From NCBI RefSeq assembly GCF_012317585.1, contig NZ_CP042909.1, positions 1,240,001 to 1,304,000 of the forward strand: a stretch of DNA of 64,000 bases, in the 5' to 3' direction. The notes under the pieces were generated by a model. It ran no database searches, was not told the DNA's origin, and saw only the letters and a program-made list of their open reading frames with translations. The position numbers and the translations under genes were made by a program. This stretch comes from Thermosulfurimonas marina (GTDB taxonomy: Bacteria > Desulfobacterota > Thermodesulfobacteria > Thermodesulfobacteriales > Thermodesulfobacteriaceae). This document shows, one piece after another, positions 4,134 to 10,257 of this stretch; position 1 is the stretch's first letter, and every line of letters begins with the position of its first letter.

Positions 4134-4505
4134 CTAACTCCTTTCCAGGATGACCACCGCGGCGGCTACTCCGGCCTCATGGGTAAGACTTACCCAGGCC
4201 CGGGCCTTTCTTTCCTCAAGGATCCGGGCCACCCGCCCCGAAAGCCGGAGCTCCGGAGCCCCGTTTTCTCGGCGCACCAGGGCCACCTCTCGGGGGGAAA
4301 ACCCGGAAAGGCCCGTGCCCAGGGCCTTACCCAGGGCCTCCTTGGCCGCCCAGGCCCCGGCCAGGGCCTCTGCTCCCCGGGCCCGGCTGCGGGCATAAGC
4401 CACTTCCTCTTCGGCAAAAAAGCGCAAAAACCGCTTTCCGTAACGCTTCCAGAGCCGAGCCACCCGTTCCACCGCCACCAGATCCACACCCACACCCACC
4501 AGCAT
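4134..4505 (-). CDS. acpS: Holo-[acyl-carrier-protein] synthase
   Basis: A 123-residue AcpS that transfers 4'-phosphopantetheine from CoA to the Ser of acyl carrier protein (the acpP at 19.1 kb is its expected substrate). The Mg-binding and catalytic motifs GVGVDLVAVERV, FFAEEEVAYA and AGAWAAKEALGKALG are present, with VSLTHEAGVAAAVVI at the end. It is the first gene of the acpS-nnr-tsaE operon. A TATAAT box on the minus strand ends only 6 bases before the ATG, and no Shine-Dalgarno sequence fits between them, so the mRNA may be leaderless. Confidence 0.95.
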   Translation of the reverse strand: MLVGVGVDLVAVERVARLWKRYGKRFLRFFAEEEVAYARSRARGAEALAGAWAAKEALGKALGTGLSGFSPREVALVRRENGAPELRLSGRVARILEERKARAWVSLTHEAGVAAAVVILERS

Positions 4506-4511
4506 GTTCCC

Positions 4512-4517
4512 ATTATA
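4512..4517 (-). promoter_or_regulatory. -10 box of acpS, leaderless arrangement
   Basis: Perfect TATAAT reading on the minus strand, with 6 bases between it and the acpS ATG. Transcription would start at or within a base or two of the start codon. No convincing -35 hexamer is seen at 16-18 bases upstream. Confidence 0.55.
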
Positions 4518-4633
4518 GTCCCCTTTTTTCCTCCCCCAAACGGGCCCTTCCGGAAAGGCCCGCTTTTGGGTGAGTTGACGGCCTTCTCCTAAAGGGTTTA
4601 AATAAACTTTAATTCGTTTTTTAGGAGGAACCT

Positions 4634-5119
4634 ATGGAAATGACTGTGGGGCCGGATCGGGTAGTTTCTCTTACCTATTCTTTAGATATTGAGGGGGAGG
4701 AGGCCCCGGAATGGTTTAAGCGTCCGCTTCAGGCCTCCTTTATCTTTGGTCGGGAGCCGGTGTTGCCCCTGATCGAGCGGGCCATTGAGGGGGCCCGGGA
4801 GAAGGAGGAAATCACCCTCACCATTCCTCCGGAAGAGGCCTATGGCCCCCATCGGGCCCATCTGGTAAAGGAGATCCCCCTTTCTCGCTTGAAACACCCG
4901 GAGCGGGTAAGGCCCGGGGCCTACTATGAGGAAGAGGGGCCCTTTGGTCAGAAGACCTTTTTCAAAGTGCTCGCGGTGGAGGGCGACCGGGTAAAAGCCG
5001 ACTTTAACCATCCGGCTGCGGGAAAGAACGTGATTATGCGCATCCGGATTGAGGCCGTGCGGGAGGCTACGGCCCAGGAGATCCTGGCGGCCGAGATCCG
5101 GCGCTGCGGCGGGGGTTGA
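4634..5119 (+). CDS. slyD: SlyD-like FKBP-type peptidyl-prolyl isomerase
   Basis: A 161-residue FKBP-fold protein of the SlyD type, with the insert-in-flap domain between the FKBP halves: VSLTYSLDIEGEE, then FIFGREPVLPLIERAIEGA, IPPEEAYGPH, and the diagnostic DFNHPAAGKNVIMRI near residue 135. Members combine prolyl isomerisation with chaperone activity. The His-rich metal-binding tail of E. coli SlyD is absent; the protein ends IRRCGGG with one Cys. The AGGAGG ribosome site is 5 bases before ATG. The stop overlaps the TTG start of the ABC ATPase gene. Confidence 0.88.
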   Translation: MEMTVGPDRVVSLTYSLDIEGEEAPEWFKRPLQASFIFGREPVLPLIERAIEGAREKEEITLTIPPEEAYGPHRAHLVKEIPLSRLKHPERVRPGAYYEEEGPFGQKTFFKVLAVEGDRVKADFNHPAAGKNVIMRIRIEAVREATAQEILAAEIRRCGGG

Positions 5120-6078
5120 GCCTAAGGGTGGAGGGGGTTCCCCTCCTTCAAGTTAAAGGTCTGCGGCTGGGCCTCAGGTCGGGACCGGTTCTGGTAGATG
5201 GAGTAGATTTCGGTCTTGGCCGGGGAGAGATTCTGGGCCTGGTGGGGGAAAGCGGCTGTGGCAAATCCCTGACCGGCCTTTCCTGTTTAGGCCTTTTTCC
5301 CCCGGGAGTGATTCCCTTAGAAGGCCGGGTCCTTTTTCAAAATCAGGACCTCTTAAGCCTTGCTCCGGAGGAGCGCCGTCGCTTTCGGGGCCGACACCTG
5401 GCCCTTATCTTTCAAGAACCCCTGAGTGCCCTCAATCCGGTCTTCACCATCGGTCACCAGATTGAGGAGGTCCTCTCCGAACACCGGGGGCTCCGCGGAG
5501 AGGCGGCCCGGGAGGAGGCCCTGCGGCTTCTGGCCGAAGTGCGCCTGCCGGACCCGGAGGTCCGCTATGGTAACTACCCTCACGAACTTTCCGGGGGAAT
5601 GCGCCAGCGGGCCATGATCGCTATGGCCCTGGCCGGAGAGCCGGAAGTCCTTGTGGCCGACGAACCCACCACCGCGCTTGACGTCACGGTCCAGGCCCAG
5701 ATCCTCGAACTTTTCAGGGAATTGCGCCTTCGGCGCCATCTGGCCCTCCTCTTTATTTCCCACGATCTTTCGGTGATCCGGGAAGTGGCGGATCGGGTGG
5801 CGGTAATGTATGCCGGAGAAATCGTGGAGGAGGCCCCGCGCGAGGCCCTTTTTGAGCAGCCCCTCCATCCTTATACCCGCGGTCTTCTGGCGGCCTTTCC
5901 CCGGCTGGGGGTGAGGCGCCTTGAGGCCCTACCGGGACAGGTACCCTCCCCTGGAAGGTGGCCCTCCGGCTGCCGCTTTGCCCCCCGCTGTCCAGAAAGG
6001 GAGGGCCGCTGTGAGAGAATCCATCCGGAGCTTCGGGAGGTGAGCCCGGGCCGGAAGGTGAGGTGTCTTCGAAGATGA
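5116..6078 (+). CDS. Oligopeptide/dipeptide (or nickel) ABC transporter ATP-binding protein, DppD type
   Basis: A 320-residue ATPase with Walker A GESGCGKSLTG, Q-loop region, signature LSGGMRQRAMIAMAL, Walker B VLVADEPTTALD and the C-terminal oligo_HPY domain with the Cys cluster CRFAPRCPEREGRCE, typical of DppD/OppD (the Cys set often carries an Fe-S cluster). The start is taken as TTG 5116, which overlaps the slyD stop (TTGA); GTG 5128 is an alternative. The stop overlaps the next ATPase (ATGA). No permease or binding protein lies nearby, so the substrate cannot be read from context. Confidence 0.9.
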   Translation: MSLRVEGVPLLQVKGLRLGLRSGPVLVDGVDFGLGRGEILGLVGESGCGKSLTGLSCLGLFPPGVIPLEGRVLFQNQDLLSLAPEERRRFRGRHLALIFQEPLSALNPVFTIGHQIEEVLSEHRGLRGEAAREEALRLLAEVRLPDPEVRYGNYPHELSGGMRQRAMIAMALAGEPEVLVADEPTTALDVTVQAQILELFRELRLRRHLALLFISHDLSVIREVADRVAVMYAGEIVEEAPREALFEQPLHPYTRGLLAAFPRLGVRRLEALPGQVPSPGRWPSGCRFAPRCPEREGRCERIHPELREVSPGRKVRCLRR

Positions 6079-7016
6079 GCGTGCTCGCCCTGCGGGAGGT
6101 GGAAAAGGCTTACGGCCTGCGCCGTTTCTGGGGAAGAGGGCCCCAACTATTAGTCCTTCGAGGGATCAATCTCGAGCTTTCGGAAAACGAGGTCCTGGGG
6201 TTGGTGGGGGAGAGCGGCTGCGGCAAAAGCACCCTGGCCCGGCTGGCCCTGGCCCTGGAGAGACCAGACCGGGGAGAGTTCTACTTTTTGGGGCAACCTT
6301 ACTGGGAGCTTCCCCGTGCGGAAAGGAAACGTTTGCGGCCGGCCCTTCAAGCCGTCTTTCAGGATCCGGCCGCCTCTCTCAATCCCCGCAAGAAGGTGGA
6401 GGATCTGGTTACCGAACCCTTGAGGCTTCTAGGGGTGAGCAAAGCCGAGGCCCGGGAGCGGGCGGCGGAGATGTTGCGCCTGGTGGGGCTGGAGGAGGAT
6501 CTTCTTCCCCGCTTTCCCCATCAACTTTCCGGGGGCCAGCGCCAGCGGGTGGCCCTGGCCCGGGCCCTGGTCACCCGGCCTCGAGCGGTGGTCCTGGATG
6601 AACCCACCTCGGCCCTGGATGTCTCCGTACAGGCCCAGATCCTGGAACTCCTCAAAGAACTTCAGCAACGCTTTCCCATGAGTTATCTTTTTATTTCGCA
6701 CAATCTTCCGGTGGTCCTCTATCTGAGTCATCGGGTGGCGGTCATGTATCTGGGAGAAATTGTGGAGGAGGCCCCGCGGGAGGTCTTTTTGAAGGGATCC
6801 GGGCTTCACCCTTATACCGAGGCCCTGCTGGCCGCAGTCCCCGGGGAAGGACGACCCGGAAGGCCCCTTCCGGGAGAGCCTCCAAGTCTCCTGAAACGCC
6901 CCAGCGGTTGCGTCTTTCACCCCCGCTGCCCGGAAGTCCAGGAGCTCTGTGTTCGGGAAAGGCCCAGGCTCCGGGAGCGAACCCCCGGGCACCGGGTGGC
7001 CTGCCATCGGCGCTAG
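6075..7016 (+). CDS. Oligopeptide/dipeptide ABC transporter ATP-binding protein, DppF type
   Basis: A 313-residue partner ATPase: Walker A GESGCGKSTLARLAL, signature LSGGQRQRVALARAL, Walker B VVLDEPTSALD, and oligo_HPY tail with CVFHPRCPEVQELCVRERP. ATG 6075 overlaps the stop of the DppD-type gene (ATGA); GTG 6063 would add four residues. Together the two genes make a heterodimeric motor, but the membrane and substrate-binding parts must be encoded elsewhere in the genome. The next gene, rtcA, begins 1 base after its TAG. Confidence 0.9.
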   Translation: MSVLALREVEKAYGLRRFWGRGPQLLVLRGINLELSENEVLGLVGESGCGKSTLARLALALERPDRGEFYFLGQPYWELPRAERKRLRPALQAVFQDPAASLNPRKKVEDLVTEPLRLLGVSKAEARERAAEMLRLVGLEEDLLPRFPHQLSGGQRQRVALARALVTRPRAVVLDEPTSALDVSVQAQILELLKELQQRFPMSYLFISHNLPVVLYLSHRVAVMYLGEIVEEAPREVFLKGSGLHPYTEALLAAVPGEGRPGRPLPGEPPSLLKRPSGCVFHPRCPEVQELCVRERPRLRERTPGHRVACHRR

Positions 7017-7017
7017 G

Positions 7018-8058
7018 ATGCTTATCCTTGATGGATCTTACGGAGAGGGCGGGGGACAGATCCTGCGCACGGCCCTTACCCTTTCCCTCCTTACCGGTCG
7101 CTCCTTCCGGCTGGTGAATATCCGGGCCGGACGCCCCCGGCCCGGGCTGCGTCCCCAGCACCTGGCCTGTGTCCTGGGGGCGGCCCGCCTCTCCGGGGCC
7201 GAAGTGGAGGGGGCGGAAAAGGGCTCCCGGGAGATCGTCTTTCGTCCCCGAGCCCCCCGTCCCGGAGCTTATACGCTGGAGATTGGAACCGCCGGGGCTA
7301 CCTCCCTCCTCTTTCAGACCCTCTATCTCCCCCTGGCCCAGGCCGGGGGCGGACGCCTTATCCTTCGCGGAGGAACCCATGTGCCCCAGAGCCCCTGTTT
7401 TCATTATTTGGCCGAGGTCTTCTGGCCGCTGGTGGAGACCATGGGGCTTTCCGGAAGGCTCACCCTGCGCAAATACGGTTTTTATCCCCGGGGAGGAGGG
7501 GAAATCCTGGCCGAGATCGGCCCGGCCCGAGAACTCCGGGGACTGGACCTCGGAGCTCCCCTGCGCCCCGAAGTGACCCGGGTGTTTTCTTTTGTGACCG
7601 CGGACCTTCCCGAGCATATCCGGCGGCGCCAGGCGTCCCGGGCGGAAAAACTCTTGCGCGAGGCCGGGCTTTCGGTGGAAGTTCGTCTGGAGAAGGCCCC
7701 CAGCGCCTCCCCGGGGACCTTCGTGGGGGTAGTGGGACAGGAGGACTTCCGAAGGGCCGGGGTCTTTGCCCTGGGGGCCCGGGGAAAGCCGGCCGAAAAG
7801 GTGGCCGAGGAGGCGGTGGGGCCTTATCTTCAAATCATGGAGAGGGCTTCCTCGGTGGATCAATATCTGGCAGATCAGTTACTCCTTCCTGCGGCTCTGG
7901 CTAAAGGTTTAACACGTTTCCGCACCCCGGCGGTGACCCGCCATCTTTTAACCAACGCCTGGGTCATCCGGCAGTTCCTCCCGGAGGTAAAGATCGAGAT
8001 CCAGGGGGCCGAGGGGGAACCCGGAGAGGTCATGGTCCATGGAAGCGGAACGTTTTGA
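7018..8058 (+). CDS. rtcA: RNA 3'-terminal phosphate cyclase
   Basis: A 346-residue RtcA that uses ATP to convert RNA 3'-phosphate ends into 2',3'-cyclic phosphates. Family marks include LDGSYGEGGGQILRTALTLS, RAGRPRPGLRPQHL, GRLILRGGTHVPQSP and YGFYPRGGGEI, and the nucleophilic His lies at residue 309 in TRHLLTNAWVIRQFL. ATG 7018 is chosen because family proteins start just before the LDGSYGEGGGQ motif and it follows the upstream TAG by 1 base. It overlaps the RNA ligase gene by 20 bases, so the two enzymes of RNA-end metabolism are almost certainly made together. Confidence 0.95.
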   Translation: MLILDGSYGEGGGQILRTALTLSLLTGRSFRLVNIRAGRPRPGLRPQHLACVLGAARLSGAEVEGAEKGSREIVFRPRAPRPGAYTLEIGTAGATSLLFQTLYLPLAQAGGGRLILRGGTHVPQSPCFHYLAEVFWPLVETMGLSGRLTLRKYGFYPRGGGEILAEIGPARELRGLDLGAPLRPEVTRVFSFVTADLPEHIRRRQASRAEKLLREAGLSVEVRLEKAPSASPGTFVGVVGQEDFRRAGVFALGARGKPAEKVAEEAVGPYLQIMERASSVDQYLADQLLLPAALAKGLTRFRTPAVTRHLLTNAWVIRQFLPEVKIEIQGAEGEPGEVMVHGSGTF

Positions 8059-9205
8059 AAGGATCCGAGAGCGATTTTCTCGGATCTATGAGCGCAATCC
8101 GGCCCTAAAAAAGCTCCCTTTAGAGGTCTGGGAGACCGCCTTGGCCGACGCCCGGCTGGTGCCGCTGGCCGGGGTGGAAGAAAACCTCTTTCGCCTACGC
8201 CGAGATTTTCGGGGATTTCCGGAGGGGACCGTCCTGGGGGAGGAGATTTTGGTCCCCGGGTTTCCGCACATCCCCCGCATCTTCCGTTTGACCAGCGGGG
8301 TGCCCCGCTATTTTGCAGGGCCCTTTTTTGCGGAAGAGAAGATCGAAGGCTACAACGTGAGGCTTTTTACGGTGGGCGGAGAGATCCTGGCGGTGACCCG
8401 GCGGGGCTTCGTCTGTCCCTTTGCCACCGACCGCTGGCCGGATTTTTTGCCCCGTCTTCCGGAGTTTTTTGAAGAGCATCCGAATCTGGCGGTCTGCTGT
8501 GAGGTGGCCGGTCCGGGAAACCCCTTTGTGGGAGAATGGCCGTCCTATGTGAAAGAGGACGTGCGGTTTTTTGTCTTTGATCTCCTGCGTTTTCCTGAGG
8601 GCCGCTTCCTTCCCCCGGAGGAGAAGTACGCCCTCTTTGAAGCCTACCAATTCCCCGCTCCGGAGATCTCCGGGCCCTTCGAGCCCGGGGATCTCTCTCC
8701 CCTTCTCGAACTCCTCCGGCGCTACGAGGCCGAGGGACGGGAAGGGGTGGTCCTCAAAGGGGCCTCCGGAAGTCCTTACCTCAAATATGTCACTCCCATC
8801 TCCAACCTGGAAGACCTCCGAGTGGTCTTTCCTTACTTGGGGGAGGTTCCTCCGGAGTACCTCACCCACCGTCTGGTGCGCTATGTCCTCAGTCGCTGGG
8901 AGCTTTTCGGGGACTTTGGACCGGAGGAGGAACGGGCCCTGGCCGGGAGGGTCTTTCGGGGCCTGGCCGAGTTTTTGGAAAGGATTTCCGAGGGGGAGCC
9001 GGTTTCCGAGACCTTTCGGGTGCGCTTTCGCACGGAAAGGGCCTTTCGCGCCCTATTGGCCCATTTTAGACACGCTCAGGTGAAGGTGGAGGTCCTTTCC
9101 GAGGAAAGGAAGAGAGGGTATCTCGAGGTGACCTTTCGGAAGATCTATCCCCGGGCTACGGCCTTCTGGCGCAACAAGCTGGAGGGCTTTTCCGTGGTGG
9201 ACTAA
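8039..9205 (+). CDS. ATP-dependent RNA ligase, Pab1020/Mth Rnl (Rnl3) type
   Basis: A 388-residue nucleotidyltransferase of the archaeal-type RNA ligase family, which adenylates itself on Lys and seals or circularises RNA. Motif I is EEKIEGYNVRL with Lys101. Motifs III (FFVFDLL), IV (EGREGVVLKG) and V (SPYLKYV) follow in order, and a C-terminal helical dimerisation/extension domain fills residues 250-388. The length matches the archaeal proteins (about 380). Translational overlap with rtcA suggests a shared RNA-repair or RNA-processing task. The last 4 bases overlap the convergent permease gene. Confidence 0.88.
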   Translation: MEAERFERIRERFSRIYERNPALKKLPLEVWETALADARLVPLAGVEENLFRLRRDFRGFPEGTVLGEEILVPGFPHIPRIFRLTSGVPRYFAGPFFAEEKIEGYNVRLFTVGGEILAVTRRGFVCPFATDRWPDFLPRLPEFFEEHPNLAVCCEVAGPGNPFVGEWPSYVKEDVRFFVFDLLRFPEGRFLPPEEKYALFEAYQFPAPEISGPFEPGDLSPLLELLRRYEAEGREGVVLKGASGSPYLKYVTPISNLEDLRVVFPYLGEVPPEYLTHRLVRYVLSRWELFGDFGPEEERALAGRVFRGLAEFLERISEGEPVSETFRVRFRTERAFRALLAHFRHAQVKVEVLSEERKRGYLEVTFRKIYPRATAFWRNKLEGFSVVD

Positions 9206-10257
9206 CTCTGACAAGCGCAGCCCGGCTCCCGGTCCTTCCAGAGAGGTTTCCAGAGGATCTCCCGCAGAAGAAGGAGGGCCAGGAGGGCCGCCGAGAGGGT
9301 GTTCAGAAGGCTCGGACCCTCCGGGGCGGAAGGAGAGACCTTGGCCGAAAGGCCGGGGAAAAGGGTATCCAGGGCCAGGCCTGCGGTGAGGGCCGCCAGG
9401 ATAAGGGCCAGAAGATAGAGCGTCACCGTGCGCAGACCGAAAAGCCGGGAAAGTACGGTGATACTGGTAAGGTTAGTGGCTGGTCCGGTCACCAGAAAGA
9501 CCAGCACCGCCCCGGGGCTGAAGCCCTTAAGGAGGAGGGTGTAGGCCAGGGGAATGGAGGCGGTGGCGCACACATAAAGGGGAAGCCCCACCAGGATCAT
9601 GGCCGGATAGACCAATCCGTGGGCCGAAAGCCTTTCGGCCAGCCCCGGAGGAAGGATCAGGGCCACCAGGGCCGCTAGCAGAAAGCCCACGGCCAGAGGC
9701 CGGGACAGATCCGCCAGAAGTTCTTCCACGGCATAGAGCAGGGAGGTCCAGACCCTTTCTCCAAAGGTGTGTTGATGGGAGGTTTCCGCAGCGCAGCAGG
9801 CGCAGGCCGCAAGGGGAGTGGAAGGGGAGGGGCTTTCCCCCACCAGAAAGCGCACCGCAAGGGCCACCCACAGGGCCACCCACAGGGCCGAAAGTGGATA
9901 GGCCAGGGCGAAAACCCCGCCCAGAAGACCGTAGGCCAGGAGGATGGCGTCGGCGCTGGTCTGGGGAGTGGCCACCAGGAAGGCGAAGGTGGCCGGGAGA
10001 CCGGCCCCGGCCCGATAAAGCCCTACCGCTGCCGGCAGAACCCCGCAGGAACAGAGGGGAAGCGGAAGCCCCAGGAGGGCGGCCTTCAGGGCTCCCTTTA
10101 GGGTGTGCCCTCCTAAGTGTCGGCTGAGCCAGTCCTCGGAGACAAAGACCCGCAGGAGTCCGGCCAAAAGGAGGCCCAAAAGGAGATAAGGGGCCGCCTC
10201 CAGGAAGAGCCCTCCCAGTTGGGAGAGATAGAGGAGAAGCCATTTTTCAGAACTCAT
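9202..10257 (-). CDS. Membrane permease, DUF318/SO_0444-like metal efflux family
   Basis: A 351-residue polytopic membrane protein with eight to ten predicted helices. The signatures LGLPLPLCSCGVLPAAVGL and VGLPLYVCATASIPLAYTLL define the DUF318 permease superfamily (ArsP and the SO_0444 Cu/Zn-efflux branch). A His/Cys-rich stretch between the halves (CACCAAETSHQH) and a terminal CACQS are possible metal-binding sites. A second member of the same superfamily sits in the ars island at 53.9 kb. The substrate is not proven; a thiophilic metal or organometal is likely. It diverges from the epimerase gene with a 55-base gap. Confidence 0.82.
   Translation of the reverse strand: MSSEKWLLLYLSQLGGLFLEAAPYLLLGLLLAGLLRVFVSEDWLSRHLGGHTLKGALKAALLGLPLPLCSCGVLPAAVGLYRAGAGLPATFAFLVATPQTSADAILLAYGLLGGVFALAYPLSALWVALWVALAVRFLVGESPSPSTPLAACACCAAETSHQHTFGERVWTSLLYAVEELLADLSRPLAVGFLLAALVALILPPGLAERLSAHGLVYPAMILVGLPLYVCATASIPLAYTLLLKGFSPGAVLVFLVTGPATNLTSITVLSRLFGLRTVTLYLLALILAALTAGLALDTLFPGLSAKVSPSAPEGPSLLNTLSAALLALLLLREILWKPLWKDREPGCACQS

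Follow-up and report, generated by a model that had tools for sequence, protein, structure and literature searches.

The genes for RNA 3'-terminal phosphate cyclase (rtcA) and for an ATP-dependent RNA ligase of the Pab1020/MthRnl type (rnl3) are intact and overlapping in the thermophilic bacterium Thermosulfurimonas marina, and they are held together across the order Thermodesulfobacteriales, also after a change of gene neighbourhood. We propose that in this order they make up a conserved bicistronic cassette for the processing and sealing of RNA ends, a reading to which we give about even chances. The window, which is the whole stretch of 64,000 nucleotides that was analysed (G000:C1:1240001-1304000), comes from a genome of 1.76 Mb in a single contig. 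The features of the locus are, in window positions:

4634..5119, + strand: SlyD/FKBP-type peptidyl-prolyl isomerase, heading the co-directional run (FKBP_C, 27.2 bits)
5116..6078, + strand: oppD-like ABC ATPase, overlapping oppF and co-directional with oppF-rtcA (Pfam annotation)
6063..7016, + strand: oppF-like ABC ATPase (Pfam ABC_tran and oligo_HPY)
ATG 7018 to stop 8058, + strand: rtcA, RNA 3'-terminal phosphate cyclase, 346 aa, nucleophile His309 (TIGR03399, Pfam, PDB 4o89)
8023..8029, + strand: GGAGAGG, a Shine-Dalgarno-like run within rtcA, 9 nt 5' of the ligase ATG (read from the sequence)
8039..8058, + strand: overlap of the rtcA and rnl3 reading frames, 20 nt (ORF coordinates)
ATG 8039 to stop 9205, + strand: rnl3, ATP-dependent RNA ligase, 388 aa, nucleophile Lys101 (TIGR01209, Pfam, PDB 2vug)

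The slyD-like, oppD-like and oppF-like genes (4634-7016) form a five-gene co-directional run with rtcA and rnl3, in which a single base separates oppF (ending at 7016) from rtcA (starting at 7018). No permease or binding-protein genes are interspersed in the stretch before rtcA. A search for sigma-70-like promoters across 4500-9500 found none, and the five terminator-like sites in the same interval were fewer than in shuffled sequence, neither result being proof of an operon. The common direction, the overlap and the lack of a promoter-like site at 4500-9500 suggest that rtcA and rnl3 are made together. The 20-nt overlap and the two nucleophiles had been pointed out in an earlier note on this DNA, and we found all three at the positions given there: 8039-8058 on the + strand, His309 within TRHLLTN and Lys101 within EEKIEGYN. 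In 28 of 34 Thermodesulfobacteriales pair loci the candidate ligase start, as set by the reading frame, overlaps rtcA by 7-23 nt. Since this holds at protein identities down to 42% for RtcA and 49% for Rnl3 across these loci, a chance overlap is excluded.

Family models, motifs and structural matches supported the identification of both enzymes made in the earlier note, and both belong clearly to known families. RtcA scored 345.8 bits against TIGR03399 (cut-off 250.05) and just below the narrower model PRK04204.1-2 (337.3 vs 352); Pfam RTC and RTC_insert domains were both found, and the best PDB match was 4o89 (E 6e-68), with a further match to 1qmh, which we take to be E. coli RtcA. Members of the RtcA family catalyse ATP-dependent cyclisation of 3'-phosphate RNA ends, and Rcl1-type paralogues are not known to have the nucleophilic His309, which was histidine in 68 of 68 aligned RtcA sequences. 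The ligase scored 296.6 bits against TIGR01209 (cut-off 136.9) and carries the RNA_ligase (PF09414) and Lig_C (PF18330) domains, that is, a nucleotidyltransferase plus a C-terminal region. Its best PDB match was PAB1020 (2vug, E 5e-71), followed by 3qwu (E 1e-67), presumably from Aquifex, and 5d1o, presumably MthRnl; its nearest named relatives were from Thermosulfurimonas and other Thermodesulfobacteriota. Rnl3 ligases are homodimers that circularise RNA with 5'-phosphate and 3'-OH ends. Seven residues taken as motif residues (E99, K101, G104, E155, E235, K240 and K249) were invariant in 88 of 88 aligned Rnl3 sequences. Degeneration of the enzymes was ruled out, as the catalytic motifs of both are intact, and from their sequences both proteins should be active.

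All 41 Thermodesulfobacteriales genomes available to the analysis were searched, as part of a phylum sample with 19 others. The order includes cultured strains of Thermodesulfobacterium, Thermodesulfatator and Thermosulfurimonas. Rnl3 was found above the cut-off in 38 of the 41 genomes and in none of the 19 others (0/19). Both genes were present in 37 of 41 (G004 being counted from a contig-cut rtcA fragment), and in these they were directly adjacent (HMM gap <400 nt) in 32 and no more than 10 kb apart in 34; in G030, G036 and G040 both are present but apart. The earlier note had proposed a neighbourhood survey, and had named absence of co-occurrence in other genomes as a result that would refute its coupled pair; this objection falls, because both genes are carried by 37 of the 41 genomes, and in 32 they are adjacent. 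A named collection of loci, which mostly repeats the genomes of the order sample, had rtcA directly upstream of rnl3 in 26 of 30 order loci (a script identified 24; L126 and L127 were added, as their open frames run past its limit); two of the remaining four lie at contig edges, and two have the genes apart. One of the 30 loci (L135) is on a contig filed as Candidatus Heimdallarchaeota, and its rnl3 falls inside the Thermodesulfobacteriales clade; the contig is probably mis-binned. In G014 a PMT_2-type glycosyltransferase gene lies between rtcA and rnl3 in the same direction (L107 8038-9582). In G033 about 1.1 kb without a recognised gene separates rnl3 and rtcA (L085 8488-9613); this insert had no Rfam match, and the single frame tested had no Pfam match.

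Literature searches among open-licence papers brought up no report of an rtcA-rnl3 pairing. RtcA operons were reportedly the topic of work by Das and Shuman in 2013, which may discuss other partners. The pair is an unusual, order-wide putative operon of ordinary enzymes that was not found described in the literature searched.

Four further RNA genes were located in the same genome, all of them away from the pair:

G000:C1:980014-981309: rtcB, about 266 kb from rtcA
G000:C1:1057547-1058095: ThpR-type phosphodiesterase gene, presumably active on cyclic ends
G000:C1:1184298-1184676: RNase P RNA
G000:C1:1642017-1642568: HARP, protein-only RNase P (L244; PF08745, 204.9 bits), about 393 kb from the ligase

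The presence of RtcB, HARP, ThpR and RNase P RNA in one genome is in keeping with the proposed cassette, and the genome has both HARP and RNase P RNA. All four of rtcA, rnl3, rtcB and HARP were found in 34 of the 41 order genomes. As stated in the earlier note, the partner of RtcA in E. coli is RtcB; here rtcB occupies a separate locus, and rtcA does not lie beside it. The RtcA-RtcB repair operon of E. coli and other bacteria likewise couples an RtcA gene to an RNA ligase gene, but the ligase in the window is the ATP-dependent Rnl3, which has a lysine nucleophile and joins 5'-phosphate to 3'-OH ends, and not the GTP-dependent RtcB, which is unlinked. No rtcR-like gene was seen among the eight annotated neighbours. 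Proximity within 10 kb was almost confined to the pair under study, with 34 of 37 genomes for rtcA-rnl3 against 0/44 for rtcA-rtcB, 0/35 for rnl3-rtcB, 0/35 for rtcA-HARP and 1/36 order genomes (G030) for rnl3-HARP, and this difference from the control pairs supports the cassette. Two explanations based on a missing enzyme were ruled out. RtcA-Rnl3 does not replace an absent RtcB, which was found in 55 of 60 genomes. Nor is HARP the sole RNase P, which would have explained a special need, as a search of 42 genomes found RNase P RNA in 37, among them 32 of the 37 order genomes included.

HARP is the published partner of Rnl3. Among HARP-positive genomes Rnl3 was present in 665 of 751, and the two were co-localised in 127 of 164 bacterial cases (PMC12153264, Seshadri and Gopalan), with a proposed role in C/D-box sRNA maturation. 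A word search of the main text of that paper gives no RtcA, cyclase or "Thermodesulfobacteri-", and Thermodesulfobacteriales is absent from the bacterial orders listed there. HARP has been named in Thermodesulfobacteria, with both types of RNase P in Thermodesulfatator indicus (PMC10941002). The window ligase is of the same family as the published pair (TIGR01209, PF18330) and HARP occurs in the same genomes; however, in the arrangement described in PMC12153264 the ligase has HARP next to it, for the most part in the opposite orientation. The window ligase instead has a co-directional, overlapping rtcA upstream, and its genome encodes HARP at another locus, more than 5 kb away.

It is conceivable that HARP and Rnl3 are the real functional unit, as in PMC12153264, with HARP making a 5'-phosphate end, Rnl3 circularising or repairing the product, and rtcA incidental. 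Both genes occur in 36 of the 41 order genomes, they are side by side in G030 and in 34 of 50 named loci outside the order (HARP ≤1.5 kb downstream of rnl3), and they are jointly absent from G026 and G007. We nevertheless think this reading rather unlikely, since 35 of 36 order genomes have HARP at a distance from rnl3 while rtcA is near it in 34 of 37, and since fibrillarin, the partner of the published substrate class (C/D-box sRNA), was not found here. Separate loci are compatible with joint action of HARP and Rnl3, and also with RtcA as a third member. G026 (99% complete) and G007 (64%) lack rtcA as well as rnl3 and HARP and keep RtcB, and in G026 this suggests joint loss of the three genes in a single event. 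The shared absence also counts in favour of the cassette.

The proposed cassette draws further support from the two neighbourhoods in which the pair is found. Fourteen loci (context A) retain one or more of the genes slyD, oppD, oppF, arsP, sdr and pfk that neighbour the pair in the window, the slyD-like gene in 10 of the 14, some loci being cut by contig ends. In 20 loci of the Caldimicrobium/Thermodesulfobacterium type (context B) none of ten window neighbours is present and the pair is retained, with a siroheme-synthase gene 3' of rnl3 in all 20. The link between rtcA and rnl3 is the only one of the cluster seen in both contexts, and this is its distinguishing mark.

The oppD-oppF genes directly precede rtcA also in G030, G036 and G040, where rnl3 sits elsewhere, indicating that the order oppD-oppF-rtcA is older than the rtcA-rnl3 link; the opp genes are not shown to be part of an RNA function. 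The rnl3 gene of G030 converges on HARP (333344/333354). This genome was sister to the rest of the order in both trees, where the order clade had support of 100/100 (Rnl3) and 100/98 (RtcA); in the Rnl3 tree the node excluding G030 was weak (83/88), and L081 sat on a long branch. HARP lies beside Rnl3 so often outside the order and in one of 36 genomes inside it, and Rnl3 therefore seems to have left HARP and joined oppDF-rtcA once. By parsimony, the simplest history would start from an ancestral oppDF-rtcA and a separate rnl3-HARP, with rnl3 joining rtcA once; the pair would later have left the opp genes together, and G036 and G040 would have lost the link. As the pair probably formed once, the adjacency in 32 genomes should not be counted as 32 separate origins. 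The interpretation in the earlier note is partly borne out: its coupled pair is supported by conservation across the order, but the note had missed HARP as the published partner of Rnl3, the separate HARP gene of this genome and the tie of rtcA to oppD-oppF.

Stable linkage of unrelated neighbours suggests that part of the rtcA-rnl3 linkage may be operon inertia. In the extreme case, rnl3 landed behind rtcA once in an ancestor and was kept there by inertia and overlapping frames with no shared function, a serious possibility, though one we lean against. Unrelated genes have been equally persistent, namely siroheme synthase in context B and oppF-rtcA in G030, G036 and G040, so that retention alone is weak evidence of function; the trees fit one origin of the pair, and adjacency is absent from the Thermococcus phylum. 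What a mere bystander does not readily account for is that rtcA-rnl3 alone spans both neighbourhoods, that rtcA, rnl3 and HARP are missing together from G026, and that six Aquificota also have rtcA and rnl3 in one co-directional run, with a different RtcA lineage.

In those six Aquificota (G069, G072, G076, G096, G100 and G101) rtcA and rnl3 share a strand, with rtcA about 3-6 kb upstream; in G100 just a partial rtcA at a contig edge was seen. This arrangement also speaks for the cassette. Their RtcA is another lineage in the tree, and the proximity to rnl3 therefore seems to have arisen separately. In five Aquificota loci (L165, L235-L238) gyrA and a PurQ-like gene lie between the two; these families were tested in L165, and L235-L238 were read by eye from similar starts. 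The rtcA-gyrA-purQ-rnl3 genes of these loci are co-directional and converge on HARP, and the gyrA genes of L235 and L237, two long copies that were tested, contain inteins. The Aquifex-type Rnl3 (PDB 3qwu, deposited as a DNA ligase) is likewise the Rnl3 of a bacterial thermophile, but the Aquificota ligase gene converges on HARP and, in some, has rtcA 3-6 kb upstream past gyrA and purQ, unlike the window. Elsewhere the association of the two genes is looser, which speaks against the cassette, as does their separation in G030, G036 and G040. In the 50 named loci outside the order rtcA was directly upstream of rnl3 in none; 28 of these Rnl3 genomes had an rtcA match (25 above cut-off) and 22 had none. 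Among 115 genomes of the Thermococcus phylum, 77 had both genes above cut-off and none had them adjacent (0/77), the closest being 7.9 kb apart. Of the 55 with both genes on one contig, 33 have rtcA on the strand of rnl3 and 8-31 kb upstream of it, a spacing that is loose but conserved.

The archaeal Rnl3 enzymes (Pab1020, MthRnl, TkoRnl) share family and catalytic motifs with the window ligase and circularise RNA in vitro, and a knockout showed that the Thermococcus enzyme circularises C/D-box sRNA (PMC9014305). The present host, in contrast, is a bacterium without fibrillarin and, unlike the Thermococcus genomes, has rtcA adjacent. Fibrillarin was above cut-off in none of 42 genomes, 37 of them Thermodesulfobacteriales; weak matches in 8 of the 42 were short stretches, taken as other methyltransferases. 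C/D-box sRNA was therefore rejected as the main substrate. The candidates of the earlier note, namely rRNA fragments, tRNA halves and circular RNA, may still apply. An anti-phage role was also set aside, since PADLOC gave no match for RtcA or Rnl3; the two ABC ATPases matched models of defence-system ATPase subunits, which we take as shared ATPase folds. A close-relative scan of viral contigs found no viral carriage of Rnl3.

RtcA acts on 3'-phosphate, 2'-phosphate and 5'-phosphate ends and makes cyclic and 5'-App ends, according to a review (PMC8131947). MthRnl ligates 5'-phosphate to 3'-OH ends and does not circularise 3'-phosphate RNA; it takes off a 3' adenosine leaving a cyclic phosphate, and can turn a 3'-phosphate into a cyclic phosphate (PMC5599603). 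In the proposed cassette, RtcA would convert 3'-phosphate or 2'-phosphate ends, through an adenylate, to 2',3'-cyclic phosphates; it could also adenylylate 5'-phosphates. Rnl3 would adenylate 5'-phosphate ends and ligate these to 3'-OH ends of the same or of another RNA. With these chemistries the pair would sort RNAs, whether broken or processed, according to their ends. RNAs with 3'-OH and 5'-phosphate ends would be sealed or circularised by Rnl3, and phosphorylated 3' ends would be blocked by RtcA against Rnl3 and kept sealable by RtcB, which would be expected, in place of Rnl3, to join the cyclic phosphates that RtcA makes. The 2'-phosphates left by the ThpR-type phosphodiesterase could be recovered through RtcA, and HARP or other nucleases may be the source of the 5'-phosphate ends. 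Judged from the encoded enzymes, end sorting would be the most economical model. Against the cassette, adjacency is not the same as expression or a shared substrate, and since Rnl3 does not join RtcA-made ends, the two chemistries have no obvious hand-over.

A hand-over would exist if RtcA fed Rnl3, with RtcA adenylylating 5'-phosphate ends and Rnl3 carrying out only the final joining, or if both left an A(5')pp(5')RNA cap-like end. RtcA adenylylates 5'-phosphates in vitro and both types of enzyme are listed as possible makers of A-pp-RNA (PMC8131947), and Pfu Rnl adenylates very efficiently (PMC9303275). However, Rnl3 has its own ligase motifs and should need no help with adenylation, and the 5' activity was reported for E. 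coli RtcA in vitro; we hold such feeding to be very improbable. In its boldest form, to which we give little credence, the end-sorting cassette would be a dedicated bacterial pathway of RNA circularisation or end-capping run by this order, with a single message for RtcA and Rnl3 and with 5'-phosphates perhaps supplied by HARP. Each processed RNA would become a circle, a 5'-adenylated RNA or an RNA with a 2',3'-cyclic-phosphate end, and HARP would have been exchanged for RtcA as genomic partner since the cyclase and the ligase share their RNA targets.

With the putative rtcA-rnl3 operon, Rnl3 has a conserved genomic partner in addition to HARP, and RtcA has a ligase partner in addition to RtcB. 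It thus bears on the in-cell substrate of bacterial Rnl3 and on the purpose of RtcA.
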